Below, one piece after another: positions 1 through 22,093 of a stretch of 23,934 nucleotides of DNA. The notes below the pieces were generated by a model that was not told the DNA's origin, did not search any database, and saw only the letters and a program-made list of their open reading frames with translations. Every line of letters starts with the position of its first letter. The stretch's first letter is position 1. The position numbers and the translations under genes are program-made. The DNA comes from a virus. Location: positions 1-23,934 of IMG/VR virus record IMGVR_UViG_3300023174_000628; one strand, given 5' to 3'.

Positions 1-81
1 CCATAGGAGCCACAGTCACAAGAACCGGTACTACAACCCCTACAGCTAAATATACTAAGACTTCTAGGAAACGGAAACCCG
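1..81 (+). other. Tail of an upstream gene, frame unresolved, plus leader of the Dps-like gene
   Basis: The left edge is open in two forward frames. One ends at a TAA at 47-49 and would give a Tyr/Asn/Ser/His-rich C-terminus. The other is Thr-rich, then basic, and runs to a TAA at 118-120, overlapping the next gene by 39 bases. Too little is visible to choose between them. A purine-rich AGGAAA at about 65-70 precedes the ATG at 82 and could serve as a ribosome binding site, though the spacing is long. No promoter is evident. Confidence 0.3.
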
Positions 82-522
82 ATGTTAGCAGACGATTTGA
101 AAACTCTATTGGCCAGTAACTTTGCATACTATGTCAAAGCACAAATGTTCCACTGGAACGTAGAAGGCCCTGACTTCGTGCAGTTGCATGAGCTATTCAG
201 CGAAATCTATGAATTCGCCTACAGCGGACACGACAAGATCGCCGAATACATCCGTACCCTGGATGACTATGCTCCCGGTAGTCTAGAGCGTTTCCAAGAA
301 CTCAGCCAGATTCCCGGACAAACAAAGATCCCACGTGCTCGACTCATGCTTGAAGAGCTGTTGTCGGACACAGAAACATTAAAGACTCTGGTAATGTCAA
401 CATTCTCCAGCGCACAGCAAGAAGGTCGTGAAGACGTTGCTAACTTCTGTGCCGAGCGCCAAGACGGTTTGGGCAAGTATGCCTGGCAGATCAAAGCCAC
501 TCTTAAAGATTCGAGAGCATAA
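82..522 (+). CDS. Dps-like ferritin-family protein
   Basis: A 146-aa protein of the Dps/ferritin-like family, whose members form 12-subunit shells that oxidise and store iron and protect DNA. The signature lies at residues 23-58, with FHWNVEGPDF followed by QLHELF. His24, His36, Asp51 and Glu55 have the spacing of the E. coli Dps ferroxidase ligands (His51, His63, Asp78, Glu82). The position matching Asp67 is Ser40, so the intersubunit iron site may be altered. The protein starts directly in helix A and lacks the Lys-rich N-terminal tail that many Dps proteins use to bind DNA. The next gene begins two bases after its stop, and the following genes look like virion components. It could protect host DNA during infection or be packaged; the sequence does not decide. 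Family assignment is firm, role is inferred. Confidence 0.85.
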   Translation: MLADDLKTLLASNFAYYVKAQMFHWNVEGPDFVQLHELFSEIYEFAYSGHDKIAEYIRTLDDYAPGSLERFQELSQIPGQTKIPRARLMLEELLSDTETLKTLVMSTFSSAQQEGREDVANFCAERQDGLGKYAWQIKATLKDSRA

Positions 523-524
523 GC

Positions 525-1358
525 ATGAATGATCTTTACCGCATCCTTGAGACCCTAGATCGCATTGAGCAAGAAAGTCTCGACTCTGCGCAAAAAAGCG
601 TCAAGCAGTTGCCTGCATTGTTTAGGCCTCGTGACACTTCGCCACAGCTGAGTGGTCCTTATCCAGGTAAGAATGCCACTCAAGGTTATTTGGTAGGTGA
701 AGGTGATGAACAAGGATACGGCAGTGAAGTTGGAGACACTGGTGCAGACGAGACGCCTGATGGAGTAGATCCAGATACCAAATCTTTCCTAGAAAGCACA
801 GATTCAGACAATCCAGTAGAGCGTGCCATACTGAATCGTATCATGATGCAACACACCAGCTTGTTGGGCCGTTATGGTCCACAGGCAGTGATGGATGCCG
901 CACGTGATGTTGCTGAGTTTGTAGGCGACGTAGACGAAATTGGCAGCAGTGATGTATCAGCCTATGTTCGTAGTGTTGAACAGATACTGGCCGGTTCAGG
1001 TTTGTCAGAAGCCAAGACCACAGAAGATGTTATATCTACAGTAAAGAAAAAACTAGGAGACTACCTAGCTGACCTTTCAAAAGAAATCAAATCTGATTCA
1101 GATCTCAAAGACAAGATACCGCAGGATGCAGACAAGATATCTCCTGCAGTAAAAACCATTACCACAGACGATGGCAAAGAAATCAAAATACACGGCAACG
1201 AAGATGATGGTTTCCGTATCACCATCAGGAACAAACCACACTCGGCAAAGTTTGAAAGCCTTGACCATGCTGTGATGGCCTGCGAGATATATCTAAATCG
1301 CAAGCGTAAGATGCGCGAACAAGTGCAAAACGAAGATTACCTGGAAGAACAAAAATGA
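525..1358 (+). CDS. Modular phage protein of unknown function, possible processed virion protein
   Basis: A 277-aa acidic protein that I cannot assign to a named family. Residues 1-20 form a short amphipathic start containing ILE (7-9). Residues 30-95 are low complexity (Gly/Asp/Pro-rich) and probably disordered. Residues 96-155 look like a compact helical domain ending in a DVDEIGSSDVSAYVR-type segment, a pattern I associate with hypothetical phage proteins. Residues 215-265 look like a small alpha/beta module (KEIKIHGNEDDGFRI followed by a helix). Glu90|Ser91 (FLE|S) and Glu162|Ala163 (LSE|A) fit the T4 gp21 prohead-protease consensus. Start and stop are tightly joined to both neighbours, and the stop overlaps the next ATG by four bases. 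A structural or packaged role is inferred. Confidence 0.7.
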   Translation: MNDLYRILETLDRIEQESLDSAQKSVKQLPALFRPRDTSPQLSGPYPGKNATQGYLVGEGDEQGYGSEVGDTGADETPDGVDPDTKSFLESTDSDNPVERAILNRIMMQHTSLLGRYGPQAVMDAARDVAEFVGDVDEIGSSDVSAYVRSVEQILAGSGLSEAKTTEDVISTVKKKLGDYLADLSKEIKSDSDLKDKIPQDADKISPAVKTITTDDGKEIKIHGNEDDGFRITIRNKPHSAKFESLDHAVMACEIYLNRKRKMREQVQNEDYLEEQK

Positions 1359-4300
1359 ATTTATTGAACTTGATTGAAGACACTACCACAGGCTACGAAA
1401 ATCTCAGAGCCTTGATGCAGGCAGTGCAAAACAGCCAAGATGCTTTGCTCAACATCGGTGGCGAACCCATCACATTAACTTATCCTGAAGCCAGGTTCAT
1501 GTTTGGCAAGTACAAAGCATTCAATCAAGCAGGTCGTCAAGAGGAGTTTCTCAATGTGTTAGGTGACCCTGTCAAGTTTGATCAGCACATGAAACAACTG
1601 CGTCAACTCATTGACAAACAAAAGAACTTCCGTGGTTCAGTTCCGGGTCAGCGTGGTGTTGAAGGTGATGTTCCAGCCGGTGTGGCAGAGGAAACGGTAG
1701 AAGAAATAGCTATGACCAATCCTGATCGCCCTACTACAGAGACAGCCGGCAAGATCAACTGGGAACGCATGATACAAGACTACATGGCCAACAAACCTTA
1801 CAGTGAATTTGAATTCGCTGATGATCGTCCACTCACTATCTATCGTTCACAGATCTATGCCATACTCAAAGACTTTGGTCGCATGAAGCCACCACAAAAG
1901 GTCAATATCATCCTTAAAGTTTTTGGGGACAAGTATGCCATGGTTGAATACATCGATAAACTTCGGGCCAAAGGTATGATGCCTAAAAAAGTTCCAGCCT
2001 ATGTGTCGCCTGATGTAAAGCCCACACCTCCTGGACAAATGAACTTACCTGGCATGGACATGCCCAGGATCAAAGAAGCCGAAGCTCAAAAAAAAAATTC
2101 TAACGAAGCAGAACTAGGCTCAGGCACAGCTCGCAGTCCCAAAGTACAACGTGCTTTCCAACTAGCAAGAGCAAGGCAAGCGGCCGCAGGTTCAGACATT
2201 GAAGCGTTTGTCAAAGACGAGCTAGAAAAGGCCGAACAAGCACAGTCTGAAATCAATCAACTGCGCGACGAAAACGACCGCCAGGATCAACAGATACAGC
2301 AGTTGGCAGCCAAGGTGCGCCAGCAAGACCAAGAAATAAATCAGATACAGCAACCTGCCGCAGTAGCACCTGCCAAAGCAGAACCTCCCAAGGAAAAACC
2401 CAAGGCAGCTGAACCAGACAAGAAGTCCAAGGCCAAAGACACAGAACCCAAGGCCGCAGAAAAACCAGCAGAACCTAAAAAACGCGAAGAGCCACGTGCT
2501 GAGCCTGCTCCTGCAGAACCAGCGAAACCACCAAAGGTCGATCAACCTAAACCCGATGACACTCAAATACAACGTCCGGAACCTGTTGAAGTTCCTGACA
2601 ATGTGTTACAGTTTCCAAGTCCTGCACAACGCAAGAAAAAGAAAAAAGCGGCATCCGGACAAGTTGATCCAATGGCGGCGGCTGTTCAAGGTGTTGATAT
2701 AGTAGATTTTGAAAAAGCCGTGGGCATGAATGAAAGCAGTGAAGAACTACACATGGGAGATCCCGTAATCATCCGTGGCAATGTAGAATACAGTGGCAAG
2801 ACCGGAGACGTTGCAGGCTTTGGCCGAGACAAGCATTTTATAATCGTAGATCTTTACAACTTTGGCAAACATGCTTTCCATGCCTCCAATGTAGAGTACA
2901 ACAATCATGACGACTACATTGATGAAGGTGCTGTGCAAGAAATGCAAACCAAACTAGATCGTGTCAACATCAGCCAACCTGCTCCAGGTGGCACCAATAA
3001 ACAGCGCGAAGATTTTTTAGATGCACGTGAAAGATTGTTCCGTCAAATGACCAATGCCACACCAGGAGAGAAAGAAGCCATCAGATTAAAGATCGCTGAT
3101 CTAGAAGGTCAAGCACAGGCCAAAGGTATCCGGATACGTGAAACCGAAGATTTAAATCGTTCAGGCTACAACGCTATCAAGACAGTGCATGACTGGGCAG
3201 AAAAAATGCGTGTGATGCGCGAGCTACAAAAGGATATTGCTTTAATGTCTGATCCTGAAGCCAAAGAAGCTATCGCTCAACGCATTGGCGATTTGCTTAA
3301 GATTGGTATCAAACAAGGTTATCTCAAAGAAGCACTCAGCGACAAGGCCATGGCTGTGTTACGTGGACTCAAGACCACAGGTCAAGCACAGGCACCGGCT
3401 CCTTTGAGTGCTGAGAAACAAGCAGAGATAGATGCCTGGGCACAAGACTTCCAGCGTAACGTTGCTGGTCCAATGGGTCGGCAGGTAGTTCCTCCACAAC
3501 CACAAATAGATCTCAATGTGCCTGATACACCCAAGGCTCGCAGAGGTCGTCCTTCCAACGCCGAACGTGCCCAACAAGCCGAAGAATACCAAACAATCAA
3601 GCGCCGTATTGCACAGTTGGATGAACTGATCAAGATGAAAGAACAGATAGACAAGCTGTTCTTGAAGGCACAGAATGTGCGTGGTGGTATCTATCCAGGC
3701 TTGCAAGCAGACATTGAAGCAGAAGAACTGTATCCTGTACCAGACTCGGATCGTGAATACGAAGATCTCCGGTCCAAATATACCAAAGACTTGGCAGCAC
3801 TGCAAAAGTTCTTGGCCATGAAGAAAGCTGTGTATCGCGAAGATGAAGATTCAATGTTGGGTGAAAGCACTGCGTTGGTTCGCTTGAAACAAGCACGTCA
3901 AGCACTGAGTCAGCAAGGCATGGCGGAAGGCAGACCAGAAGATCTGCCAGGCATTGATTATTACCGTCCAGGAGACGCACCACGCAAACAACCCAGCGGT
4001 GAACACAATCCCTATCCTTACAGTAAAGAAGAAGATGACGATTACTTCCGTGAAATCTTCCGTAAGAAGCGTGAAGCAGCCGCCAAGGCCAAAGATCAAG
4101 GCATGGCGGAGGCAAGTAGCCCGGCACAGCAGGCCGCCATTGCCATTGCTATGAAGAAGGCTGGTAAGAAACCAAAAACAGAAGCAATGACAGACTATCA
4201 AAAACGCAGACAGCGTGAGCGTGATGTAGATGCAGGCCGTCCTGTCAAGCCTTTGCCTAAGAATCCACAAACTGACTATGCTAAGAAAAGAGCAAAAGAC

Positions 4301-4456
4301 AAGAAAGATATGGAACTGGGAGAAGAACATGATGCCTGTTATAACAAAGTCAAAGCTCGATATAAAGTTTGGCCTTCAGCATACGCCAGTGGAGCACTAG
4401 TCCAGTGTCGTAAAAAAGGTGCTGACAACTGGGGCACAGGCGGTAAGAAAAAATGA
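1355..4456 (+). CDS. Large modular protein (1033 aa) with coiled coil, PAKE-rich linker, KOW-like segment and basic tail
   Basis: The function is unknown. Visible layout: residues 1-245 are mixed helical; 280-335 are a Gln/Glu/Asp-rich probable coiled coil; 336-430 are a Pro/Ala/Lys/Glu-rich, surely flexible linker ending in five lysines; 467-516 (GDPVIIRGNVEYSGKTG then KHAFHASNVEY) look like an SH3/KOW-type barrel. Residues 545-700 and 735-825 are helical. The end carries short basic modules, including PAQQAAIAIAMKKAGKKPK (923-941) and a C-terminal CYNKVKARYKVWPSAYASG-type module (995-1013). Hydrophobic-x-Glu|Ser/Ala/Gly sites at Glu460, Glu659, Glu837, Glu858 and Glu919 fall near module edges, and QGMAE occurs twice. 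This suggests a packaged or structural polyprotein cut by a prohead protease, which is inference. A run of ten A lies in the gene at 2088-2097. Four-base overlaps join it to both neighbours. Confidence 0.75.
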   Translation: MNLLNLIEDTTTGYENLRALMQAVQNSQDALLNIGGEPITLTYPEARFMFGKYKAFNQAGRQEEFLNVLGDPVKFDQHMKQLRQLIDKQKNFRGSVPGQRGVEGDVPAGVAEETVEEIAMTNPDRPTTETAGKINWERMIQDYMANKPYSEFEFADDRPLTIYRSQIYAILKDFGRMKPPQKVNIILKVFGDKYAMVEYIDKLRAKGMMPKKVPAYVSPDVKPTPPGQMNLPGMDMPRIKEAEAQKKNSNEAELGSGTARSPKVQRAFQLARARQAAAGSDIEAFVKDELEKAEQAQSEINQLRDENDRQDQQIQQLAAKVRQQDQEINQIQQPAAVAPAKAEPPKEKPKAAEPDKKSKAKDTEPKAAEKPAEPKKREEPRAEPAPAEPAKPPKVDQPKPDDTQIQRPEPVEVPDNVLQFPSPAQRKKKKKAASGQVDPMAAAVQGVDIVDFEKAVGMNESSEELHMGDPVIIRGNVEYSGKTGDVAGFGRDKHFIIVDLYNFGKHAFHASNVEYNNHDDYIDEGAVQEMQTKLDRVNISQPAPGGTNKQREDFLDARERLFRQMTNATPGEKEAIRLKIADLEGQAQAKGIRIRETEDLNRSGYNAIKTVHDWAEKMRVMRELQKDIALMSDPEAKEAIAQRIGDLLKIGIKQGYLKEALSDKAMAVLRGLKTTGQAQAPAPLSAEKQAEIDAWAQDFQRNVAGPMGRQVVPPQPQIDLNVPDTPKARRGRPSNAERAQQAEEYQTIKRRIAQLDELIKMKEQIDKLFLKAQNVRGGIYPGLQADIEAEELYPVPDSDREYEDLRSKYTKDLAALQKFLAMKKAVYREDEDSMLGESTALVRLKQARQALSQQGMAEGRPEDLPGIDYYRPGDAPRKQPSGEHNPYPYSKEEDDDYFREIFRKKREAAAKAKDQGMAEASSPAQQAAIAIAMKKAGKKPKTEAMTDYQKRRQRERDVDAGRPVKPLPKNPQTDYAKKRAKDKKDMELGEEHDACYNKVKARYKVWPSAYASGALVQCRKKGADNWGTGGKKK

Positions 4457-4806
4457 GATATCAAGAGATTCTTGAAGCTTGCTGGACTGGATATCGTCAA
4501 GCCGGCATGAAGAAAAAAGGTGACCGCATGGTGCCCAACTGTGTGCCTGTCAGTGAACAGCAAATGGAAGAGGATCTCAAGAAGTGGTTCAAAGAAAAAT
4601 GGGTGCGGTTCAACCCGCAAGGTAAGATCATGGGCCCCTGTGCTCGCGGCGACGACTCCGAAGGCAAACCCAAGTGTTTGCCACAAAGCAAAGCACATGC
4701 TCTAGGCAAGAAAGGTCGTGCATCGGCTGCGGCCCGCAAACGCAGACAAGATCCTAACCCAGAAAGAAAAGGAGCAGCCATCAACGTGGCGACGAAGAAA
4801 AAATGA
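4453..4806 (+). CDS. Small basic Cys/Lys-rich phage protein
   Basis: A 117-aa, strongly basic protein. It starts MRYQEILEA, resembling T4 capsid-targeting peptides, with ILE|A (Glu8|Ala9) fitting the gp21 cleavage rule. The middle carries WFKEKWVRFNP and GPCARG (about residues 45-60), then KPKCLPQSKAHALGKKGRAS and a run of Arg/Lys ending in an ERKGAAINVATKKK tail. I have the impression that this basic module recurs at the end of many marine phage proteins, but I cannot name it with certainty. Basic charge and cysteines suggest nucleic-acid or metal contact. The gene overlaps both neighbours by four bases, so it is translated with the large modular protein upstream. The existence of the gene is well supported, the function is not known. 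Confidence 0.75.
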   Translation: MRYQEILEACWTGYRQAGMKKKGDRMVPNCVPVSEQQMEEDLKKWFKEKWVRFNPQGKIMGPCARGDDSEGKPKCLPQSKAHALGKKGRASAAARKRRQDPNPERKGAAINVATKKK

Positions 4807-4904
4807 GAACATACACACTTACAGCCAATGGTCAAACATTTACGATACAAGCCTCTAACTTCAATGAGGCGCTTGACAAACTACGAATCATGCTAGGACT
4901 GTGA
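4803..4904 (+). CDS. 33-aa microprotein
   Basis: A short reading frame coding for 33 residues that begins MRTYTLTANGQTFTIQASNF and ends in a helix-like NEALDKLRIMLGL. The predicted pattern is two beta strands followed by one helix, a plausible tiny fold. Its ATG overlaps the upstream stop by four bases (ATGA), and its TGA shares one base with the next ATG (TGATG), the same coupling used by the undoubted genes around it. This context, rather than any family match, is the main support. No function can be given. Confidence 0.55.
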   Translation: MRTYTLTANGQTFTIQASNFNEALDKLRIMLGL

Positions 4905-5311
4905 TGAGAAACTACATCAACTTGTTAGAAGCAATGGAACGAGGTTGCCCTCCGGCCACGCAGAGCATCGATCTCAACTTGAAGAATCGCCAAAAAGCCA
5001 TAGACGAATATCACTATGGTCCACTGAATCCCAATGAGCCCAATGATGAATACTGGGCTGAACTGGCCGACCGTTGGAATACCAACGACATAGAGTCCGT
5101 TAAAAATAATCGCTGTGGCAACTGTGCGGCCTTTGATATGAGCCCCGACATGTTGGATTGTATAGCCAAAGGCATTGGCAGTGAGCCTGGTTCAGATCCA
5201 CATGACACTATAGATGCTGGAGATCTAGGATATTGTAAGTTCCTAAAGTTCAAGTGTGCGGCCAAGCGCACTTGTGATGCCTGGGTCGAAGGAGGACCGG
5301 TGACCAAATGA
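4904..5311 (+). CDS. Cys-rich phage protein, possible metal or iron-sulfur binder
   Basis: A 135-aa protein with seven cysteines: C15, C71, C74, C86, C111, C118 and C124. The C71-x2-C74-x11-C86-x24-C111 series, with GNCAAFD after the first Cys and GDLGYC before the last, resembles the order seen in high-potential iron-sulfur proteins, though spacing differs. The C-terminal part (KFKCAAKRTCDAW) adds two more cysteines. Zinc binding or disulfides are alternatives. The N-terminus MRNYINLLEAMERG carries LLE|A, a T4 gp21-type cleavage site after Glu9, so the mature protein may lose its first nine residues in the capsid. I chose the ATG at 4904, which overlaps the upstream stop, rather than the GTG three bases earlier. 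It overlaps the next gene by four bases. Confidence 0.7.
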   Translation: MRNYINLLEAMERGCPPATQSIDLNLKNRQKAIDEYHYGPLNPNEPNDEYWAELADRWNTNDIESVKNNRCGNCAAFDMSPDMLDCIAKGIGSEPGSDPHDTIDAGDLGYCKFLKFKCAAKRTCDAWVEGGPVTK

Positions 5312-5949
5312 GAGCCAAAGAATTTGTAAATGAAAAATGGAGCGAGAAATACAAACGCTCTATCAACTGTGCCAACCCCAAGGGCTTTAGCCAGCGAGCA
5401 CATTGCCAAGGTCGCAAAAAGAACGAAGACTTAAATGAGTTTGCACCCGGTGGCGGCAGTGATCCTGGAGACTATTTTAGAACTCTAGCATCAGCTTGGT
5501 ACAACGGTGTGTATGACGCTGGCAACTTGCAAAAAGGCATCAAGAGTCAAGAAGACATAGAACGTTTACTACAGCGAGGCATTGTATGCCCCGATGGCAA
5601 GACACGCAAGTATGGTATTGACTATAACTCTACCTTTGACGGTGTAGTGATCAGCAGTGACGATTACTATGAACACAGTGACTACAATGACAAAGGTCAA
5701 GAAGTAGACAGTCGCACAGGTCAACTCTGGGGTCCATATGATTACATGGAGTTTAAAGACGAGGAACTGGATGAAAGTCTTACGGAAGAGCAACTAAATG
5801 AACTCATGTTCAAAGGTAGCCAGTGTACCAAGGACTGTTCAGGCCACATGGCAGGTTATGAATGGAGTATTCGCAAAGCAGGTAAGGTTCCAAACTCTCA
5901 TTCGCCTAGCTTCAACAAAGGAGCCGCTATTCAGCGATCAGGTCTATGA
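5308..5949 (+). CDS. Modular phage protein of unknown function with two Cys-rich motifs
   Basis: A 213-aa protein built of recognisable blocks. It starts MRAKEFVNEKWSEKYK, like a capsid-targeting peptide. Residues 18-37 hold a SINCANPKGFSQRAHCQG module. Residues 42-50 contain LNEFAPGGG. Residues 52-145 form an acidic, Tyr-rich domain (SDDYYEHSDYND). LDE156|S fits a prohead protease site. Residues 168-191 contain CTKDCSGHMAGYEWS. My impression is that these short blocks recur in unrelated marine phage proteins; their function is not known. The two Cys motifs could bind metal. The gene overlaps its neighbours by four bases on both sides. A virion or packaged role is inferred from the company it keeps. 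Confidence 0.7.
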   Translation: MRAKEFVNEKWSEKYKRSINCANPKGFSQRAHCQGRKKNEDLNEFAPGGGSDPGDYFRTLASAWYNGVYDAGNLQKGIKSQEDIERLLQRGIVCPDGKTRKYGIDYNSTFDGVVISSDDYYEHSDYNDKGQEVDSRTGQLWGPYDYMEFKDEELDESLTEEQLNELMFKGSQCTKDCSGHMAGYEWSIRKAGKVPNSHSPSFNKGAAIQRSGL

Positions 5950-6020
5950 ACCCATATCCTGTTTATCCTGAACAACAAGGCGAATGGGATCGTCCAAGAA
6001 ATCCGTATTCACCAGTATGA
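5946..6020 (+). CDS. 24-aa Pro/Tyr-rich microprotein
   Basis: A tiny reading frame (MNPYPVYPEQQGEWDRP, 24 residues in all) that is rich in proline and tyrosine and probably unstructured. Its ATG overlaps the upstream stop and its TGA overlaps the next ATG, each by four bases, so it bridges the two larger genes without a gap. It may be a translated coupler rather than a protein with a job of its own. No homologue is recognised. Confidence 0.45.
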   Translation: MNPYPVYPEQQGEWDRPRNPYSPV

Positions 6021-6550
6021 GATTAAACGAAATACAACTGGGTCGTAGTGTTACCTACAACTTCTACGACATCTACTCCTTGGTCAAGCAACGAGAAGGT
6101 CGTCCAGGACTGACCATAAGACTGCGCAACGACCGTCCCCCTGAAACAAAGAAGTCTGGCATCTATGTTTGGAAGCATCCTGACTGGGGATACTTTTATG
6201 TAGGTATCGCGGCTGCTGATAATTTCACAGCACGTTGGCACAAGCACATACAAAAACTATTGGATCAATGTACTTCAGCCGCACAAATGCATAACTGGAA
6301 ACAGTTTGCTGATCGGTTTGCAGCCGCTGGCTATGGCATCAATGATCTCAAAGATGTACAACTACGCTTCTATCCCATAACTACAGTGGCACAGCACGGT
6401 AACAAAGAGCAACTCAAACAGGAACTCAAAGCCATAGAGGATCGTCTCACTGCTTGGCTCAACCCTGCTTGTAACTATCAACACAATCCCAACAGGCCCA
6501 GTGCCACCAAGTACCCCACATCAAGAAATGCTACGCCTGACCAACAATAA
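6017..6550 (+). CDS. GIY-YIG nuclease-domain protein
   Basis: A 177-aa protein with a GIY-YIG endonuclease core. The first motif is GIY at residues 48-50, the second YVG at 61-63, and the catalytic Arg is Arg73 (FTARWHKH). The metal-binding Glu is probably Glu141 (AIEDRL), and LNP is at 148-150, with the Asn154 region closing the fold. All expected catalytic positions appear present. GIY-YIG enzymes include homing endonucleases such as T4 Seg proteins, repair nucleases and restriction enzymes; there is no recognisable DNA-binding tail to tell which. I chose the ATG at 6017 because it overlaps the preceding stop; an in-frame upstream start at 5984 would overlap the microprotein extensively. 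Tight coupling on the left suggests it is a settled member of the operon, not a recent homing insertion. Confidence 0.75.
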   Translation: MRLNEIQLGRSVTYNFYDIYSLVKQREGRPGLTIRLRNDRPPETKKSGIYVWKHPDWGYFYVGIAAADNFTARWHKHIQKLLDQCTSAAQMHNWKQFADRFAAAGYGINDLKDVQLRFYPITTVAQHGNKEQLKQELKAIEDRLTAWLNPACNYQHNPNRPSATKYPTSRNATPDQQ

Positions 6551-7288: not shown

Positions 7289-8392
7289 ATGGCATTCGAC
7301 GAAACCCGTATGTTATTTCCAAATCCCAAAGGATTTGATAACCCAGCATTACTTGATTCTGTCATGGGATACCATCTCATGAAAGATATCGTATGGCCAA
7401 AAAATACATACTTCTATTTGCACAATCAATGGGGTACACACGATAAGAAAACTGTATTGCCTAAAAACCATGACTTATATGTGATCAGTTGGCATATGGA
7501 ACAGATTGATTTTGATTGGCTCGCACTTCAAAACTTGACACAGCCCGTGATAGTGCTATCTGATCAAAAAACCTATGATCCTGAAGTGTGGCCTATCAAT
7601 GTGATTCCTTTGCGTTGGTTTACTTGGCACTTGGCTTTGAAAAAAATGATTGATATGTATGGTATGTCGTTTCACAAAGATATACATTATAAGTTCAGTG
7701 CCTTTTGCAATCGCATCAGTCAAAACAAACTGATAGTGGCCACAACATTGTTGGAAAAAGTCCTACCACAACATCGTTTGGTCAAAGTCGGTACATTTTT
7801 TGAAGAAAAAAATGTGCATCATTGGTCACTCACAGGCAATGCTATGATTGATAACATAGTAGAAACATTTCGACAAAAATATTTTGGACGAGAACTATCC
7901 ATTGATGATTTTGGTACAGATCTGCATCATCATGTCACTGCTAACCCTAACGGCATTGCCTACGAACAAGCTGCCATTAACTTTACCAATGAAAGTTACC
8001 ACTATAGTTTGAAACAGATAGATAATCAACAACTGAGATTGCCAGGGCCCATGACTTCTGAAAAAACTTGGAAGTGTTTGTTAGCCCAAACTGCTTTTGT
8101 GGCAGTAGGACAATATGATACTCACAAGGATCTATGTTCTTTGGGATACAAATTTGATTATGGATTTGATATGAGCTTCGACCAGATTCCTGGAGACATT
8201 GATCGTCTGTGTGCTATCGTTGAACTCATTGACTATCTAGATCAGTATTCAGCGCAGGACTTGTATGAAATGACCAAGGTCAGTACCGAACACAACTATC
8301 ACCATGCAGTTTCTGGTGACTTCTATCAGATCTGTGAAAGTTTCAATCACAGCACACTTGAAAACTTAAACAAGGTATTAAACAATGTTTGA
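7289..8392 (+). CDS. Glycosyltransferase-like protein
   Basis: A 367-aa protein. The N-terminal half resembles a Rossmann-like fold (PVIVLSD near residues 85-91; KLIVATTLLEKVLP near 147-160). The C-terminal part has SEKTWKCLLAQTAFVAVG (from about 258) followed by LGYKFDYGFDMSFDQI and an Arg-containing helix. This S/T-EKT-plus-GY layout is one I associate with uncharacterised glycosyltransferase-like proteins of marine phages and of bacteria. The exact fold, donor and acceptor are unknown. There is no signal peptide. No Shine-Dalgarno precedes the ATG, and the candidate RNA lies just upstream. It overlaps the DegT-like gene by eight bases, suggesting both act on one sugar. Codon use looks more AT-rich than the replication genes, consistent with an acquired cassette. 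Confidence 0.5.
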   Translation: MAFDETRMLFPNPKGFDNPALLDSVMGYHLMKDIVWPKNTYFYLHNQWGTHDKKTVLPKNHDLYVISWHMEQIDFDWLALQNLTQPVIVLSDQKTYDPEVWPINVIPLRWFTWHLALKKMIDMYGMSFHKDIHYKFSAFCNRISQNKLIVATTLLEKVLPQHRLVKVGTFFEEKNVHHWSLTGNAMIDNIVETFRQKYFGRELSIDDFGTDLHHHVTANPNGIAYEQAAINFTNESYHYSLKQIDNQQLRLPGPMTSEKTWKCLLAQTAFVAVGQYDTHKDLCSLGYKFDYGFDMSFDQIPGDIDRLCAIVELIDYLDQYSAQDLYEMTKVSTEHNYHHAVSGDFYQICESFNHSTLENLNKVLNNV

Positions 8393-8999
8393 AACTGTGA
8401 GAGAGTTTGAAATACAAGTAGCGAAGTTCTATGGTGCGCCTTGTGCCGTGGCCACTGACTGTGCTACTCATGCGTTGGAACTGTGTCTCAGAGCCACTGA
8501 CTTTGATAACATCACAGTACCAGTGCGAACCTATGTCAGTGTACCAATGACATTGATCAAGTTGAACAAACATTGGTCTTGGCGAGATCAACCTTGGCAA
8601 GATTTTTACTATTTGGGCAACACCAATATCATTGATGCCGCGGTGTATTGGCAAAAGAATGGATACATCGCAGGCACTATGATGGCGCTGAGTTTTCAGT
8701 TTAAAAAACACCTCAGCACGACCAAAGGTGGAATGATACTGCTGGATGATCCAAAACTAGCACAGCTCTTGCGGCGTATGTCCTATGATGGTAGAGATTT
8801 GTCCAAACCTTGGGCAGAACAACTGATAGACACCGTGGGCTACCATTATTACATGACACCAGAAACTGCACAGCTAGGATTAGCAAGGCTGGCCCAAGCT
8901 AAACTGGAACCTGCCAGGCGATGGGATTATACTGACTACCCGTATTTGCCTGACTTTCCGGTATTTGGTGAAACGCCCATTGACATTGGCACACAATAG
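8385..8999 (+). CDS. Half-size DegT/DnrJ/EryC1/StrS aminotransferase-like protein (copy A)
   Basis: A 204-aa relative of the DegT family of PLP-dependent sugar aminotransferases, whose normal members are near 370-400 aa. Family landmarks appear in order: a GAPCAVATDCATHALELCLR start of the fold (17-36), IIDAA (82-86) with the Asp that contacts the pyridine nitrogen, SFQFKK (103-108) with the PLP lysine, then GG and DD (115-122). SYDGRD (133-138) and GYHYYMTPETAQLGLARL (152-169) follow. The segment between the first and second landmarks is shortened and the C-terminal small domain is missing. Activity as an aminotransferase is therefore uncertain; it may be a dehydratase-like or PLP-binding derivative. 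A paralogue lies near the right end of the window. The -35 box of the next gene is inside its last codons. Confidence 0.75.
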   Translation: MFETVREFEIQVAKFYGAPCAVATDCATHALELCLRATDFDNITVPVRTYVSVPMTLIKLNKHWSWRDQPWQDFYYLGNTNIIDAAVYWQKNGYIAGTMMALSFQFKKHLSTTKGGMILLDDPKLAQLLRRMSYDGRDLSKPWAEQLIDTVGYHYYMTPETAQLGLARLAQAKLEPARRWDYTDYPYLPDFPVFGETPIDIGTQ

Positions 9000-13709: not shown

Positions 13710-14356
13710 TCAGAGACGTAGTCCGATACCAACCTCCCCAACACTGGGGAGTGTTGTTCATTGACTGCTGGCATGCGGGCGGCCAAAACGATGCATTTTA
13801 TCATCAGGTCGTAGATCGATTAAAACAGTTTTCGGTGTCAGCGACGGTGTGTTGTACGGTTGATTTAAAGATTGACTATCAAGACGTTTCTGTGTATAAT
13901 ACATTGAGTCGGTATCTTTGGAATCCCAGTGGCATAAGCGAGCACACCAATCAAAACGTGTTGCTGGATCTAATCAAAGCCGCCGGGAAACAAGAAACGA
14001 GTCGTGTATTGAGGAATAATATTTTCAACAATGACACAGTTTGTCTATATAGAAGAGAAACCTTCAATCATCATGCTCAATATCATGCAGAGGGTATCAA
14101 AGATTGGATAGTAGTTGGAAGTGCATGGAAAATGTGTATACATCATGGCCCCTTGGGCATAGATCGTCTGGTAGATGTAGGAGATCACAAGTTCCACATA
14201 TTTCCTGAGTGGAGTATACAAACAGAAAAACAAGAACCACCGAGCCTACAGGACATACACGATGATTTTTATGTATGGGCACCCATAGCAGATGGTGGAT
14301 TTAGATTGATAACAAGAGCACAAAATCACAAATGGTTCGAGAACAAGACGACTTAA
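13706..14356 (+). CDS. Hypothetical protein, GTG start
   Basis: A 216-aa soluble protein that I cannot place. It begins with a basic turn, then a hydrophobic strand, GVLFIDCWHAGGQND (about residues 15-29), that looks like the first strand and loop of a Rossmann-like domain. A similar strand-Asp layout is seen in cysteine hydrolases, but no complete active site is recognisable. The middle has a WNPSG segment (about 72-76), and the C-terminal half is rich in Trp and His. The GTG overlaps the clamp stop by four bases, the only start option that fits the local coupling. A strong promoter-like sequence lies inside the gene, and its end overlaps the next gene by 25 bases. Confidence 0.6.
   Translation: MIRDVVRYQPPQHWGVLFIDCWHAGGQNDAFYHQVVDRLKQFSVSATVCCTVDLKIDYQDVSVYNTLSRYLWNPSGISEHTNQNVLLDLIKAAGKQETSRVLRNNIFNNDTVCLYRRETFNHHAQYHAEGIKDWIVVGSAWKMCIHHGPLGIDRLVDVGDHKFHIFPEWSIQTEKQEPPSLQDIHDDFYVWAPIADGGFRLITRAQNHKWFENKTT
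13872..13900 (+). promoter_or_regulatory. Near-consensus sigma70-type promoter upstream of the TGT/DpdA-like gene
   Basis: TTGACT (13872-13877), a 17-base spacer and TATAAT (13895-13900) differ from consensus at one base. The site lies inside the upstream coding frame. The predicted transcript would start near 13907 and run about 425 bases before the transglycosylase ATG, long enough to hold a regulatory leader or to be a promoter for a group of downstream genes. Confidence 0.6.
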
Positions 14357-15855
14357 CTGCTAAACAGAGCGACTATGCTGTGTTCCTTCCGGCTATCTCT
14401 AGCTTCTATGCTGGATACATTGGTCGCGAGCGTCACGGAGTGGGATTAGATCCTGGCCGCCTGCCCAAGGGTATTGGTGACATGGAAGCCATGAACTGGC
14501 TGAATCCGCAAAAGGCCTTGTTCCCTTATCGTTGGAGCCTGTATTCAGCAGGCCATGCCAACTTAGACTTGGCCAAGTTTGATGCCAAAGAAGATATGAT
14601 CCGCAACAGAGATCCCAACACCATCATGTTGGCTGACTCAGGCGGATTCCAGATCGCCAAAGGTGTGTGGCCCGGACGCTGGGCCGACCCCACAGATAAA
14701 AAATCTGAGCAACAGAGAGAAAAAGTTCTCAAATGGCAGATGGGCATATCCACTTATGGCATGACCATGGATATTCCTACCTGGACATTCCGCGATCCTG
14801 TGGCTGCCAAAGCATCAGGTATTCACAGCTATGAAGATGCTGTCACAGCCACACAATACAACAACGAGTTTTGGATTGCCAATCGCTTTGGCGACACCAA
14901 AATCTTGAACGTATTGCAAGGTGGTAATCATGCTGAAGCTGATCATTGGTATGATCTTATGAAACACTATTCAGATCCCAACAAGTACCCAAACAAGCAT
15001 TTCAATGGTTGGGGCATGGGTGGACAGAACATGTGCGATGTACACTTGGTTCTCAAACGTCTTGTACATTTGATCCACGACGGATTATTGGAACGAGGCA
15101 TACACGATTGGATGCACTTCTTGGGCACATCAAAACTGGAATGGGCTGTGCTACTCACAGATATCCAACGTGCTGTTCGGAAATATCATAACTCTAACTT
15201 CACTATTTCTTTTGATTGCGCATCGCCGTTCTTGGCCACAGCCAATGGACAAATCTATACACAGTTAAGAACTGCCAATCGCGGCAAGTGGTCATACATG
15301 ATGAGTCCCACAGCCGATAACAAAAAGTATGCCACAGATTCACGATCATTCCGAGATGCTGTGCTACAAGATGGCATCCATGATGTGTTTGAAGATTCGC
15401 CGATTTCAGCAAGGATGTCCATTCAAGATGTCTGTATCTACAAGCCAGGTGATCTCAACAAGATCGGAAAAGAAGGTCGCACATCTTGGGACTCGTTCTC
15501 CTATGCGTTGATGATGGGGCACAATGTTTGGCATCATATCCGAGCAGTGCAAGAAGCCAATCGACGCTACGATGCCGGCGAATCTCCGGACATGATGGTA
15601 CACCCAATCAACCCAGATTTTGATGTGCGTCCGCTGATAGATCGAGTATTTGCCGCACAAGATCGCCAAAAGAGCTTGGCCATAATCGATGAGTATGCTA
15701 CAATATGGGAAAGAGTAGTGGGCACACGAGGCTTTACCGGAAAACGTGCTACCAATGCTCATACCATGTTTAACAGTTTGTTTGAAGTCGAAGACGAAGA
15801 ATCACAGACCGAAGAGTTTGATACAACCTTATTAGACCAACTCGAATCTCAATGA
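14332..15855 (+). CDS. tRNA-guanine transglycosylase-family protein, DpdA-like candidate
   Basis: A 507-aa protein with the landmarks of TGT enzymes, which swap guanine for a 7-deazaguanine base. DSGGFQ is at 102-107, with the conserved substrate-side Asp102. MDIPTW (146-151) offers a second Asp, and VLQGG (194-198) matches the TGT VQGG loop. GWGMGG (226-231) and HFLGTSK (262-268) match the later barrel loops. SFDCASPF (293-300) supplies Asp295 in the place of the nucleophile. Only three cysteines occur, none arranged CxCxxC, so the TGT zinc site is absent. Phage DpdA proteins of this superfamily insert preQ0-type bases into DNA, and the surrounding genes suit DNA modification better than tRNA modification, but this is inference. 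No Shine-Dalgarno is obvious at the ATG. The stop overlaps the next gene by four bases. Confidence 0.75.
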   Translation: MVREQDDLTAKQSDYAVFLPAISSFYAGYIGRERHGVGLDPGRLPKGIGDMEAMNWLNPQKALFPYRWSLYSAGHANLDLAKFDAKEDMIRNRDPNTIMLADSGGFQIAKGVWPGRWADPTDKKSEQQREKVLKWQMGISTYGMTMDIPTWTFRDPVAAKASGIHSYEDAVTATQYNNEFWIANRFGDTKILNVLQGGNHAEADHWYDLMKHYSDPNKYPNKHFNGWGMGGQNMCDVHLVLKRLVHLIHDGLLERGIHDWMHFLGTSKLEWAVLLTDIQRAVRKYHNSNFTISFDCASPFLATANGQIYTQLRTANRGKWSYMMSPTADNKKYATDSRSFRDAVLQDGIHDVFEDSPISARMSIQDVCIYKPGDLNKIGKEGRTSWDSFSYALMMGHNVWHHIRAVQEANRRYDAGESPDMMVHPINPDFDVRPLIDRVFAAQDRQKSLAIIDEYATIWERVVGTRGFTGKRATNAHTMFNSLFEVEDEESQTEEFDTTLLDQLESQ

Positions 15856-18232: not shown

Positions 18233-18901
18233 ATGAAAGACCAGCCTGCAGAAATCAAAGTCTCTGAAAACTTGACCTGGGAATCAGCACGGGTAGACAG
18301 TTTTTTACAAGACCTTGACTGCGGGCCACCACAACCCGTAAAAAACTTTATACCGCAATGGTATCGAGATTTACGAGGTGACTTGAGAACCTATCGCGAT
18401 GATGATTGGAGATACAACCATACAGCAAGGTACTGTAAAGGTCTGCAAGGACTTCGTAACATAGGTTGGACCATACCACTGCCAGTTGACATTACAAGTG
18501 AACAGAATGTTATAAGTCGCAAAATAGCAGTTCCCGAAATGTTGTATGGCACTATGTGGAACGAAAAACACAGCAACGGAGATCCTATCTGGGATTTAAC
18601 TGTTGTGTTTTGGCCTTGGAGAGCAAGATTGACCAAGGGATGGCAGATGATGACTTCTGCATATCATTTAGATTGGTCGCCCGATTGGTTTAGTTTCGCT
18701 GGCATGCCTCTGGCCAACTACAGCGTCAACCCAGATAAGAACGGCATAGGTAACATGTATCAGTGGGAGCAACCACTAGACACAGAACACTATGACTATT
18801 ATAATATAGAAACTGTGCATGCCTTTCGATGCGGCACTTTTATACCAAAAGATACTGTGACTTTTAGTTTAGTAATAATACCACCAGAAGGAAATCAATG
18901 A
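18233..18901 (+). CDS. Conserved phage-type hypothetical protein, Trp-rich
   Basis: A 222-aa protein without signal or membrane segment. Characteristic stretches are VKNFIPQWYRDLRGD (about 36-50), RYCKGLQGLRNIGWTIPLP (about 66-84), DLTVVFWPWRARLTKGWQMM (about 121-140) and a C-terminal PKDTVTFSLVIIPP strand pair. The order KxxIPxWYR, then C..L, then IPLP is one I have seen in phage proteins of unknown function (a DUF6065-like layout, not certain). The many exposed Trp and Tyr residues are typical of sugar or polypeptide binding. Its stop overlaps the glycosyltransferase gene by four bases, linking it to carbohydrate functions. Confidence 0.6.
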   Translation: MKDQPAEIKVSENLTWESARVDSFLQDLDCGPPQPVKNFIPQWYRDLRGDLRTYRDDDWRYNHTARYCKGLQGLRNIGWTIPLPVDITSEQNVISRKIAVPEMLYGTMWNEKHSNGDPIWDLTVVFWPWRARLTKGWQMMTSAYHLDWSPDWFSFAGMPLANYSVNPDKNGIGNMYQWEQPLDTEHYDYYNIETVHAFRCGTFIPKDTVTFSLVIIPPEGNQ

Positions 18902-20103
18902 GAAAACTATTTTACATGGGGCTTGAGTCGTATGAGGCCCGCTATACATTACAACTCACAGAGTGGAATCGGCGTGTGTTTGAACGTCGTGGGCTCGACG
19001 TAGTTTATGTGCCCGGATCTACTATTGACAACACACAGGCTATATCGGTCGGCCAAGTGCTAGACGCACATGGACGTAGTTATTTTTCGATGAGCCAGAT
19101 GATGAATCTGGTACAGATAATGCGTAATGGAGAGGTCACCAATGAAGATGTCATTTATTTCGAAGATATGTTCCAGCCCGGCATCGAGAGTCTACCTTAC
19201 ATTATGGACCAGATCCCTGCAAATGCTCGTCCTCGTGTTTATGTTCGCTGTCTTGCTCAATCCATTGATCCTGATGATTTCGTACATGTATGGGGTATGG
19301 CGAAATGGATGGGACTCTACGAACAAATGGTTAATGAGTTTGTTACAGGAGTTCTCGCCACGAACGAAGAGATGGTTGCTCATATGCGGATTGCTGGATG
19401 GGGTGCTCCTATATACAATATTAGTGGCCTAGCATTTGGCAAAGCAGAAGTTCTTGAACGCATCGGTGGCGCACAGAACATCAAGCCATTTGATCAACGC
19501 AAAATGCGTGTGTGTTTTGCCGCTCGCTTCGATCAAGAGAAACAACCTGGCTTCTTCATGGACTTGGTCGAAATGTATCATGCACAAGGACGTCATAAGA
19601 ACGTTGAGTTTGCTGTGTTCCAAGGCGGCCCGTTGCGTTCCAACAATCCGGAATATATACAACGTGCTCGGTCAATGGAGGCGTCAGGCCAGCTCAAAGT
19701 TTATGAAAACTTAAAGAAAAATGATTATTATAATCTGGTCAACGATAGCCGTGTGCTTTTTAACTGTGCTTTACAGGATTGGGTATCTAACACAGTATCT
19801 GAAGCCGATACTCTTGGTTGTAACGTGCTATATCCTGCTTATCGCAGTTTTCCTGAAACCTTTGCAGACGATCCGAACAGGCTCTATGTACCCTGGTCAA
19901 TCGATGATGCATTTACCAAGCTAGAGCTCCTGCTGTATGAGCCTCATCACAACATGGGCCTGATCTCCGACTGGAACAACGGCACGATAGATCGTGTCGT
20001 GGATATCCTAGAAGGCAAAGGCGAGAGTTGGAATCGTGCAGGCAATCGTTACAGAGATTATGTGAGCCAAGCTAAGTATCATGTGAGAAAAATTGAGGGG
20101 TAA
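18898..20103 (+). CDS. Glycosyltransferase, GT-B/GT4-like
   Basis: A 401-aa glycosyltransferase of the two-domain GT-B type. The N-terminal domain holds acceptor-side strands (FYMGLE at the start, LDVVYVPG near 34-41, DVIYFEDMFQPG near 84-95). The second domain begins with MRVCFAARFDQEKQPGFFM (about 203-221), the usual AR-(x)-KG/QPG helix of GT4-like enzymes, and continues with FAVFQGG and LKVYENLKKNDYYNLVN. The donor-site loop WVSNTVSEADTLGCNVLYPA (about 297-316) corresponds to the ExxxxG region. There is no membrane segment, so it acts in the cytoplasm. It is followed one base later by galE, which points to a galactose- or glucose-type donor. The acceptor may be DNA, a virion protein or a host surface glycan. 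Confidence 0.8.
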   Translation: MRKLFYMGLESYEARYTLQLTEWNRRVFERRGLDVVYVPGSTIDNTQAISVGQVLDAHGRSYFSMSQMMNLVQIMRNGEVTNEDVIYFEDMFQPGIESLPYIMDQIPANARPRVYVRCLAQSIDPDDFVHVWGMAKWMGLYEQMVNEFVTGVLATNEEMVAHMRIAGWGAPIYNISGLAFGKAEVLERIGGAQNIKPFDQRKMRVCFAARFDQEKQPGFFMDLVEMYHAQGRHKNVEFAVFQGGPLRSNNPEYIQRARSMEASGQLKVYENLKKNDYYNLVNDSRVLFNCALQDWVSNTVSEADTLGCNVLYPAYRSFPETFADDPNRLYVPWSIDDAFTKLELLLYEPHHNMGLISDWNNGTIDRVVDILEGKGESWNRAGNRYRDYVSQAKYHVRKIEG

Positions 20104-20104
20104 T

Positions 20105-21061
20105 ATGAGCACAATAGTTGTTACAGGATCCAGCGGATTCATCGGAGGAGAAACTCTGCTAAAACTGGCCGACAAAGGTCATGAGGTTATTGCCATTGAT
20201 CTTGACACACCTTGGATGGAAGTGTTGAATAATTCTACATATTTCCATCAAGATGATTTTGCCAGCCAAGACAGTTTAGATCTAATCAAGAGCTACAAAC
20301 CGACTGCCATCATTCATTGTGCTGGCACAAGTTTGGTTGGTCCCAGCATGACCAAGCCAAGAAACTACTACGACAATAACTTTGTAAAAACCAAGAAGCT
20401 GTTGGACTTCATGATCGACAACGGTATGACCAATACACGTTTGATCTTTAGTTCCAGTGCGGCTGTATACGGAGATCCGGTAATGACTCCTTGCTCCGAA
20501 GCAGATCCGCCGTTGCCTATCAGTCCTTACGGCGAAAGTAAATGGATGATCGAGAGCATGTTAAAAAGTTATCATGCGGCCTATGGCATTGACTATGTGG
20601 CATTCAGGTACTTCAATGCCTGCGGAGCAGACAGCAAAAAACGTCATGGTCAAAACAGTCATGCCACACATATCATTGCCAAAGTCTTGCAAGGTATACG
20701 TCGCAAGAACGATTTTGTATTGAATGGTACTAACTATCCCACTCCTGACGGTACCTGTATCCGAGATTATATCCACGTAGAAGACATTGCCGATGCACAC
20801 ATCATGGCTATGGATCGTGCATTGGTCCCGACAGACATCTACAATCTAGGGTCAGGCACTGGACATAGCAACCGTCAGATCATTGATCTGGCATTGAAAA
20901 TCACTGGTCAACCACTTAATGTTGTCGAAGGATCAACACGACCCGGAGACCCAGCTGTGCTTACAGCCAGTGCAGAAAAGTTTACCCAACAGTCAGGGTG
21001 GGTTCCTAAATATAATCTTGAAGAAATAATCACTCATGCATGGGCCTGGTACAATAAGTAA
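20105..21061 (+). CDS. galE: UDP-glucose 4-epimerase-like SDR enzyme
   Basis: A 318-aa extended short-chain dehydrogenase of the GalE type, which interconverts UDP-glucose and UDP-galactose or related nucleotide sugars. The NAD-binding GSSGFIG motif is at 8-14. FSSSAAVYG (115-123) supplies the catalytic Ser/Thr, and the YGESK motif (Tyr142, Lys146) supplies the active-site pair. The RDYIHVEDIADAH segment (about 221-233) is typical of GalE. Length is normal. I chose the ATG at 20105 because GAGGGG lies just upstream; the in-frame TTG at 20093 is less likely. It lies between the glycosyltransferase and radical SAM genes, and would supply or convert the sugar donor for the former. NDP-sugar substrate is not certain. 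Confidence 0.9.
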   Translation: MSTIVVTGSSGFIGGETLLKLADKGHEVIAIDLDTPWMEVLNNSTYFHQDDFASQDSLDLIKSYKPTAIIHCAGTSLVGPSMTKPRNYYDNNFVKTKKLLDFMIDNGMTNTRLIFSSSAAVYGDPVMTPCSEADPPLPISPYGESKWMIESMLKSYHAAYGIDYVAFRYFNACGADSKKRHGQNSHATHIIAKVLQGIRRKNDFVLNGTNYPTPDGTCIRDYIHVEDIADAHIMAMDRALVPTDIYNLGSGTGHSNRQIIDLALKITGQPLNVVEGSTRPGDPAVLTASAEKFTQQSGWVPKYNLEEIITHAWAWYNK

Positions 21062-21064
21062 TCG

Positions 21065-22093
21065 ATGTATCACTCAGCAGAACTCGTACATTGGATGCGC
21101 AATCGAGATACCAAGGCCATACTTCCGGCGCAGGTAGACATTGATTTAACCAACATTTGCAATCAAGACTGCTATTACTGTAACAGTGCCGACCATAGAG
21201 CCACAGCACCAGTACAGAAAAAATACATAGAATACATCGAACTCCTAGACAAAGTGTCTACCTGGAGATCACACAGCCCCAACAGTTATGGTACTACACA
21301 TACCATAACCTATGCCGGCGGCGGAGAGCCCACGGTACTAAGTGGATATGAACATGTAATAGAGCATACCATTGACCTGGGATTCCTTGCTTCCATCACT
21401 ACCAATGGATCCAAACTAGATCGGTTATTAGACAGCGTGCCTGTAAGCAAACTGCAAAAGCTGGCTTGGATAGGTGTTGACATCGATGCCGGCACCGAAG
21501 ACCTGTATGAAAAGATACGCAGGAGTTTGACATCTAAAAGTCTGTTTAACAGAGTAAAAGAAAATGCTCGAGAACTTATCTCCGCTGGTGTGAATGTAGA
21601 TTTCAAATGTTTGATCAATCCCTACAATGACAATCAACAAGCCATTGACGATTTGTTTGATTATGTCAAACAAGTACAAGGTCGTATGTTGTACTTCCGA
21701 CCAGTGATCTACAATAACCAAGCACACCCTATCACTGACCTACTGAAATCTTGGATCTCTCAGGCCAGCCAACGCACCGGTATTCCTTATTGGATCAACG
21801 AAAACAAAACACAGCCTCGGCAATACAAGCGTTGTCATCAGATGTATCACTTTCCTGTGTTCTGTGCCGAAGGTTATATCTATGTGTGTTGCGACAACAA
21901 AGGCAATCCTGCATTCAGTATCGGTCGCTGGGATCAAGGTGACTTTAGAGACCTATGGTTGAGCTCAAGACATCATGACATCTATGAAAAAACCAATGTG
22001 TCGCTGTGCAAACCTTGCAGGCCCAACCCAACTAACAACGACATACAGTCTATAATAGATACACCTAAAACCATCGAGCAACTATATCTATGA
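21065..22093 (+). CDS. Radical SAM enzyme with SPASM-like C-terminus
   Basis: A 342-aa radical SAM protein. C32-x3-C36-x2-C39 binds the [4Fe-4S] cluster that cleaves SAM, and GGGEPT (85-90) is the SAM-binding GGEP motif. ITTNG (111-115) follows on the next strand. The C-terminal part has Cys257, Cys267, Cys275, Cys276, Cys315 and Cys318 in the order typical of SPASM/twitch domains, which hold one or two extra clusters and occur in peptide- and sugar-modifying enzymes. The GYIYVCCDNKGN segment and the DLW motif are characteristic. This is not QueE, which lacks such a C-terminal cluster domain. Substrate unknown; neighbours suggest a nucleotide-sugar or a glycosylated product. It follows galE after three bases and overlaps the next start by four. 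Confidence 0.85.
   Translation: MYHSAELVHWMRNRDTKAILPAQVDIDLTNICNQDCYYCNSADHRATAPVQKKYIEYIELLDKVSTWRSHSPNSYGTTHTITYAGGGEPTVLSGYEHVIEHTIDLGFLASITTNGSKLDRLLDSVPVSKLQKLAWIGVDIDAGTEDLYEKIRRSLTSKSLFNRVKENARELISAGVNVDFKCLINPYNDNQQAIDDLFDYVKQVQGRMLYFRPVIYNNQAHPITDLLKSWISQASQRTGIPYWINENKTQPRQYKRCHQMYHFPVFCAEGYIYVCCDNKGNPAFSIGRWDQGDFRDLWLSSRHHDIYEKTNVSLCKPCRPNPTNNDIQSIIDTPKTIEQLYL

Follow-up and report, generated by a model that had tools for sequence, protein, structure and literature searches.

The linear IMG/VR virus record IMGVR_UViG_3300023174_000628 (23,934 bases; analysed over its whole length and hereafter called the window) is probably a fragment of a phage genome, and near one end it carries a cluster of five genes starting at 525, 1355, 4453, 4904 and 5308. 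It is likely, from comparative analysis, that these genes belong to a T4-like capsid-targeting system in which modular polyproteins, delimited by sites for the prohead protease, form the capsid cargo of a jumbo phage of the T4 superfamily. An earlier note on this DNA had listed the five open reading frames (ORFs) with their N-termini, all of which are present in the sequence as written, and had compared those N-termini with the targeting peptides of T4 internal proteins. That comparison is supported by a tag shared among relatives, by the protease and capsid genes of relatives, by the junctions within the proteins and by cyanophage virion proteomes; its weak points are the tags of 525 and 1355 and the lack of any excess of strict internal sites. 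To judge from sequence, the larger point, which the note missed, is that the bodies behind the tags are interchangeable modules standing behind the same kind of site.

Interchangeable modules and their junctions

Five module types, which we call A to E, mostly begin right after a hydrophobic-x-Glu motif (hxE; a slash below marks the predicted cut), either at N-termini or within long proteins. Sequence upstream of the modules is unrelated between occurrences and the junction motif is common to them. Pattern scans of viral contigs returned at least 600 matching stretches and at least 80 loci each for modules C, A and D, with 240 loci kept overall; among the matches listed, the confirmed relatives number 585, 588 and 480 respectively. 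In non-redundant counts, glutamate occupies the position before the cut (P1) in 36/36 occurrences of module A, 29/37 of B, 13/23 of C, 27/34 of D and 6/7 of E, after removal of those preceded by fewer than 15 in-frame residues (which reduced A from 77 to 63, B from 88 to 82, C from 96 to 94 and D from 59 to 52, and removed none of E). The P1 position was fixed for each module after inspection, but the effect is too strong to stem from that choice. Since the scan patterns for A and D themselves contained the glutamate, we also give the loci fetched with module C alone, which avoid this bias: A 13/13, B 14/19, D 5/6 and E 4/4.

Module E is DUF6321, and module B resembles DUF5872 (PF19197), scoring 17.1 bits in protein 4453 and 25.9 bits in a protein of locus L133, both below the Pfam cut-off of 27.5. 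Short stretches of proteins 1355, 4453 and 5308 match 365, 178 and 17 phage records respectively, from cyanophages and a few other marine phages, and Syn33, S-SM2, S-CAM9 and DSL-LC02 hold the same modules in different orders within one long protein. Within the 1355 family, segments are gained and lost at the motif QG[VM]AE; one homologue (L007) reads QGVAE/GQTDYQKRR, while the window has extra segments behind two QGMAE sites ahead of the same TDYQKRR. This motif occurs seven times in 540 proteins, against an expectation of 0.2, and always in the 1355 family. Both the junction counts and these insertions and deletions show independent modules separated by protease-type sites, as expected of a polyprotein cut by the prohead protease. 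The net charges of modules A to D (+8, +16, +8 and +4) would be compatible with DNA-bound internal peptides; as the middle segment of 5308 (-15) and the body of 4904 (-7) are oppositely charged, we claim no single DNA-condensing role.

The N-terminal tag

T4 ipII and ipIII both start MKTYQEFIAE/A, and ipI, gp22 and gp24 have early [LI]xE/[AS] sites. We scored N-termini by their likeness to MKTYQEFIAE as read from ipII and ipIII, with cut-offs of our own choice, using 914 gene starts and 4875 internal methionines from eight records as background. A score of at least 18 is reached by 23 of the gene starts, compared with a single internal methionine, and a score of 16 by nine internal methionines. 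The gene starts come from our own gene calling and include homologues and apparent duplicates (records G002 and G006); some of the 23 hits are mutually homologous and a few are doubtful starts (e.g. MATQEFLKRRKS, MKTATKFVAVK). Within the window, 5308 scores 18 and 4453 scores 17, and the other three score lower. The strict T4 cleavage rule fits two of the five peptides, as the earlier note had observed, namely ILE/A between residues 8 and 9 of 4453 and LLE/A between residues 9 and 10 of 4904 (reading the latter from its ATG; a GTG at 4901 would lengthen it by one residue), and the relaxed form fits all five. A relaxed [LIVMF]xE whose glutamate falls at residues 7-10 is found in 5/5 cluster genes and 4/24 other window genes, which is not a clean test because the cluster was picked by eye; the background frequencies are 114/914 gene starts and 354/4875 internal methionines.

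Homologues of 4904 retain MR[NDQE]xxxhhE/A (h, hydrophobic), and one of 46% identity (L139) starts MKTFKQYIFE/K and then continues into an alignable body; homologues of 5308 retain hxE/KWS even where they start MELKPIMLE or MLTIDLFE. In relatives, tags of the forms MRAQEF[VIL]xE and MKTFxxYxTE recur on unrelated proteins, and the bodies of 138 tagged proteins from related IMG/VR loci form 47 families, so that one tag precedes bodies without common homology, as with the T4 capsid-targeting sequence. At L107:1476-3898 there are four consecutive tagged genes, each with a different body.

Protease and head genes of relatives

Record G001 (343,632 bases) contains a homologous cluster and encodes a portal protein (phrog_213, 1.2e-108), a maturation protease (phrog_207, 5.9e-56; PF03420, 1.2e-27) and a major head protein (phrog_138, 7.1e-101), together with genes starting MKTFAEYLTES, MKTLREYITES, MRAREFVTED and MRAREFITEQ. 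It was the only protease carrier of the first six records examined; a second relative of about 340 kb, G035, also has the protease and a T4-like capsid gene. The earlier note had suggested a search for a gp21 homologue, which is absent from the window and present in both of these relatives. PF03420 is found in 20 of 31 module-bearing records: 13 of 15 IMG/VR records of at least 147 kb, 2 of 11 of at most 142 kb, 4 of 4 cyanophages, and T4. The window's DNA polymerase is nearest to those of the jumbo phages Phosso (50% identity) and Atu_ph07 (47%).

When major capsid proteins are aligned, the prosequence boundaries are FLTE/A in T4, LLTE/A in S-CREM2, FLAE/A in S-SCSM1 and YLKE/N in G001; we take the first to be the known T4 cleavage site, and the other three are placed by the alignment. 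The relaxed residue after the cut (P1') in G001 makes a loose P1' plausible in the window proteins also.

Cyanophage virion proteomes

The proteomes of two cyanophages, both infecting Synechococcus, connect tags and modules with virions, as far as the accessible parts of the two papers describe them (PMC10665884 for S-CREM2, PMC9602691 for S-SCSM1). The 52 virion proteins of S-CREM2 include the module-bearing ORF160 (7 peptides) and ORF137 (4 peptides), and five tagged proteins: ORF6 (MKDFDSFLEE), ORF13 (MKDLHSFLTE), ORF14 (MKRFDAFLTE), ORF136 (MQTFSMFFSE) and ORF154 (MKNFSSFLTE). With a tag score of at least 16 and hxE, 5/52 virion proteins are tagged compared with 0/167 others (p=0.00065), or 5/52 and 1/167 without the demand for hxE (p=0.003); pooling S-CREM2 and S-SCSM1 gives 6/100 and 1/401 (p=0.00033), several score cut-offs having been tried in this comparison. 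The virion marks for S-SCSM1 come from GenBank notes, which cover 48 proteins where the paper states 45. The pattern search picked out three module-bearing ORFs (S-CREM2 137 and 160, S-SCSM1 29), and all of them are in the virion lists. Separately, S-CREM2 ORF12 (L309:7704-10313), a virion protein annotated as Cas9, has a tag-like RFASFMAE/AA about 17 residues in.

Putative cargo of relatives

Pfam names only a few of the tagged bodies in relatives: Acb1, S-AdoMet (SAM) lyase, adenylate kinase, NUDIX, GNAT, cytidylyltransferase-like and DUF6267. The Acb1-like protein (L265:5727-6230; 7.3e-14) has HCT and HIT motifs behind the tag MKSFKSYLTE, and its record carries a gp21-type protease (7.7e-44); the SAM lyase is in L145 (6.1e-16). 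The tag is retained in three Acb1 relatives (L319-L321), but these are near-identical (89-100%); it is absent from a divergent relative (L322, 26%), and T4 57B has no hydrophobic-x-Glu at that place. Since tags in relatives sit on an Acb1-like protein (anti-CBASS) and on a SAM lyase, a counter-defence role for packed cargo is plausible by analogy, the cargo of relatives being no direct evidence on the five window proteins. A PADLOC scan of the 47 tagged representatives gave only four weak or unnamed candidate models, which we did not use.

A model for packaging and its alternatives

In the mechanism that we propose, the N-terminal peptide would bind the scaffold core and bring the protein into the prohead, where a gp21-type protease would cut after the glutamate of hydrophobic-x-Glu and so remove the tag. 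The same protease would free the modules of multi-module proteins, such as 1355 and 5308, from one another. The resulting proteins and peptides, of which several are small, basic and cysteine-bearing, would remain with the DNA and might accompany it into the host.

Several observations weigh against this model. There is no gp21-type protease gene in the 23.9-kb window; among module-bearing IMG/VR records, 11 of 26 gave no match to PF03420, and 13 of 15 further or earlier-negative records gave none to phrog_207 (2 of 15 matched). Of 18 protease-negative records, 17 have no match to a T4-like major head protein and G022 has one of 13.8 bits; many of them are thus probably incomplete and lack the head region, which softens the negative result without removing it. 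By score, 525 and 1355 have weak tags, which fit the relaxed form only. The earlier note had pointed to further sites inside the proteins, and strict [LI]xE[AGS] sites do occur there, but the excess expected of a polyprotein is absent, none of the five window proteins showing enrichment relative to shuffled versions (1355 has 4 against 1.9, p=0.12); as a count, therefore, these sites carry no weight. Taken alone, S-SCSM1 shows no enrichment of tags (1/48 virion proteins and 1/234 others, p=0.31), its ORF30 (MKTFKQFMSES) is not marked as a virion protein, and the majority of virion proteins are untagged. The virion lists derive from CsCl-purified particles, for which both author groups consider carry-over possible in the accessible texts (PMC10665884, PMC9602691).

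These points leave room for other explanations. The peptide might instead dock proteins onto the head-assembly apparatus or some other phage machinery, such that they reach the virion with the glutamate junctions uncut and the modules still joined. This would sit well with the lack of enrichment of strict sites and with a P1' residue that, at tags and junctions here, is frequently K, D, N or Q instead of A, S or G; yet hydrophobic-x-Glu at these places matches the prosequence boundaries of the major capsid proteins, where G001 has a relaxed P1' too, and we think uncut docking unlikely. More doubtful again is the idea that these are abundant intracellular proteins, detected in cyanophage virions through carry-over, with the glutamate simply part of a module fold or linker. 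Both proteomic studies name carry-over, and the glutamate is an aligned column in modules A and D; but the same junction precedes five unrelated module types whose upstream sequences are unrelated, tagged enzymes are concentrated in the S-CREM2 virion list, and every module-bearing protein found by pattern is in a virion list.

It is very improbable that chance resemblance among amphipathic starts, in a proteome rich in Glu and Leu, accounts for the similar N-termini. Relaxed hydrophobic-x-Glu starts are indeed common, and two of the window genes match that form alone, but high tag scores are confined almost entirely to gene starts, and the homologues of 4904 and 5308 keep the tag form while other letters vary. 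Capsid targeting with protease-delimited modules is our preferred reading; by sequence, the testable features of a T4 internal protein appear in three of the window genes and are weak in two.

Comparison with known systems

The closest analogues are T4 IPI, IPII and IPIII. Truncations of IPIII showed that its first ten residues are required for packing, and gp21 removes such propeptides (PMC9026906, accessible text); Ip1-3, whose homology is confined to the leader, inhibit type IV restriction enzymes (PMC12373910, accessible text). The window proteins and their relatives share with them a short N-terminal peptide of like sequence (weakly so in 525 and 1355) ending in hxE, unrelated bodies behind one tag, and, in relatives of the window phage, a gp21-type protease with a T4-like head. 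Unlike the T4 proteins, several bodies here are multi-module, with more junctions of the same kind, some tags are one residue shorter and P1' is looser; packing and cutting, established in T4, are predicted here. The glutamyl cutting rule also recalls T4 gp22, gp23, gp24 and Alt, with early sites in gp22 and gp24; of these, gp22, gp23 and gp24 build the head and Alt is cargo, whereas the present modules have the look of cargo or of internal peptides. In phiKZ and SPN3US, too, numerous head proteins and ejected proteins are described as being cut at glutamate (PMC9026906, accessible text); G001, for its part, matches the T4-like phrog_207, phrog_138 and phrog_213.

Among cyanophages, the same modules occur in other orders in the cluster 'T4-LIKE GC: 119' (Syn33_105 and SSM2_109, both located between terminase genes), in S-CREM2 ORF137 and ORF160 and in S-SCSM1 ORF29. 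These proteins are annotated as hypothetical or plain virion proteins, and we found no description of them as protease-delimited; GC 119 is not mentioned in the accessible part of Sullivan 2010 (PMC3037559). T4-like tags are also present on cyanophage virion enzymes, comprising an NMNAT/cytidylyltransferase, a SAM hydrolase and a kinase (MKNFSSFLTEA, MKSFLQFLKEA, MKDFDSFLEEF, MKRFDAFLTEE), for which packaging has been proposed and no targeting peptide is named in the accessible texts (PMC10665884, PMC9602691).

Gene order and neighbouring genes

The features of the cluster are collected in Table 1. Using gene 1355 as query we found 12 loci, and in four of them (L005-L008) the order is Dps, 525, 1355, (4453), 4904, 5308, GIY-YIG, polymerase. 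L008, part of G001, lacks 4453 and its 1355 homologue terminates in module-D-like sequence. Upstream of Dps, L006 and L007 have extra genes starting MRAQEFICE, MRAHEFLKE, MRAQEFLRE, MRAQEFVSE, MRAQEFISE and similar. The Dps/ferritin-like gene, itself untagged, sits directly before the cluster in the window; the truncated gene overlapping its start has a homologue (L005:2772-2951) that starts MRAHEFIAE. Models of 4904 (AlphaFold2, 30 sequences; mean pLDDT 40.5) and 4453 (13 sequences; 50.3) were too poor for structure search, and a profile of 4904 against PDB sequences gave nothing better than E 0.24.

Table 1. Coordinates of the tagged genes, their modules and junctions in the window
Feature	Position	Strand	Remarks
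3' end of sixth tagged gene, basic tail ...KYTKTSRKRKPDVSRRFENSIGQ	3..119	+	start outside window
Dps/ferritin-like gene, untagged	82..522	+	PF00210 9e-15; same place in L005-L008
Cluster gene 1, N-terminal MNDLYRILE/T	525..1358	+	relatives MADL[RK]KILE/S; weak tag score
Putative capsid-targeting peptide of gene 1, weak	525..551	+	
Cluster gene 2, 1033-aa modular protein	1355..4456	+	C-terminal part in phrog_727, phrog_38880, phrog_3477
N-terminal MNLLNLIE/D of gene 2, weak tag	1355..1378	+	identical in 5/5 homologues
QGMAE/ junction, residue 858 of gene 2	3914..3928	+	
Stretch separating the two QGMAE junctions, gene 2	3929..4111	+	not in L007, L008
Second QGMAE/ junction, residue 919 of gene 2	4097..4111	+	
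Module C (HDACYNKVKARYKVWPSAYASGALVQCRKKGADNWG..) of gene 2, net charge +8	4328..4453	+	
Cluster gene 3: tag, module D, module B; net charge +15	4453..4806	+	
Tag MRYQEILE/A of gene 3	4453..4476	+	score 17; kept in homologues
Module D (CWTGYRQAGMKKKGDRMVPNCVP) of gene 3	4480..4548	+	
Module B (LKKWFKEKW..) of gene 3, net charge +16	4576..4803	+	DUF5872-like, below cut-off (PF19197 E=0.0084)
Cluster gene 4; six invariant Cys in body beyond residue 70	4904..5311	+	
Tag MRNYINLLE/A of gene 4	4904..4930	+	close homologues: MR[NDQE]xxxhhE/A
Cluster gene 5: tag, module A, two more segments behind LNE sites	5308..5949	+	
Tag MRAKEFVNE/K of gene 5	5308..5334	+	score 18
Module A (KWSEKYKRSINCANPKGFSQRAHCQGRKK) of gene 5, net charge +8	5335..5421	+	
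Internal LNE/ site, residue 44 of gene 5	5431..5439	+	
Internal LNE/ site, residue 165 of gene 5	5794..5802	+	
SQCTKDCSGHxAGY segment of gene 5	5803..5946	+	

Other parts of the window have features of their own. A 33-aa ORF, MRTYTLTANGQTFTIQASNFNEALDKLRIMLGL, lies at 4803-4904 between cluster genes 3 and 4, and the GIY-YIG-like gene at 6017-6550 has the likely true start MRLNEIQLGRS, which is tag-like but without a Glu site. Two short ORFs at 8385-8999 and 22940-23530 resemble DegT/DnrJ-type aminotransferases, at much below the family length of 360 positions. Glycosyltransferase-like, NAD-dependent epimerase and radical SAM genes follow one another at 18898-22093, a possible sugar or surface module. 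A 507-aa protein at 14332-15855 has no Pfam match at 0.001; we presume that it resembles a tRNA-guanine transglycosylase/DpdA relative.

Implications

Both the principle of the tag and its protease are already known from T4. New, as far as the literature we searched goes, are the junction motif common to interchangeable modules and its spread; in that literature (open-licence, and mostly titles and the beginnings of abstracts) no paper dealt with capsid targeting in cyanophages or treated the module proteins as polyproteins. Our comparisons point to a possible, widespread means by which phages of lakes and oceans could deliver preformed proteins to the next host. Tentatively, and as a possibility we rate a little below even, T4-superfamily phages of lakes and oceans may share a cargo code, in which a single short motif both addresses proteins from the N-terminus and separates the modules of polyproteins, so that effectors could be exchanged and would arrive preformed together with the genome. 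Such cargo would comprise cysteine-bearing basic modules in the window phage and, in relatives, also an Acb1-like anti-CBASS enzyme, SAM lyase, NMNAT, adenylate kinase and Nudix enzymes, acting before any phage gene is expressed.

If this is true, tags and junctions would reveal from sequence which of the many uncharacterised proteins in environmental T4-like phages are transported inside the head, and would explain how accessory enzymes, reported time and again from cyanophage virions, come to be there. They would also give a use to domains of unknown function such as DUF6321, DUF6267 and modules A to D, and lead to the testable claim that counter-defence enzymes arrive ahead of transcription.

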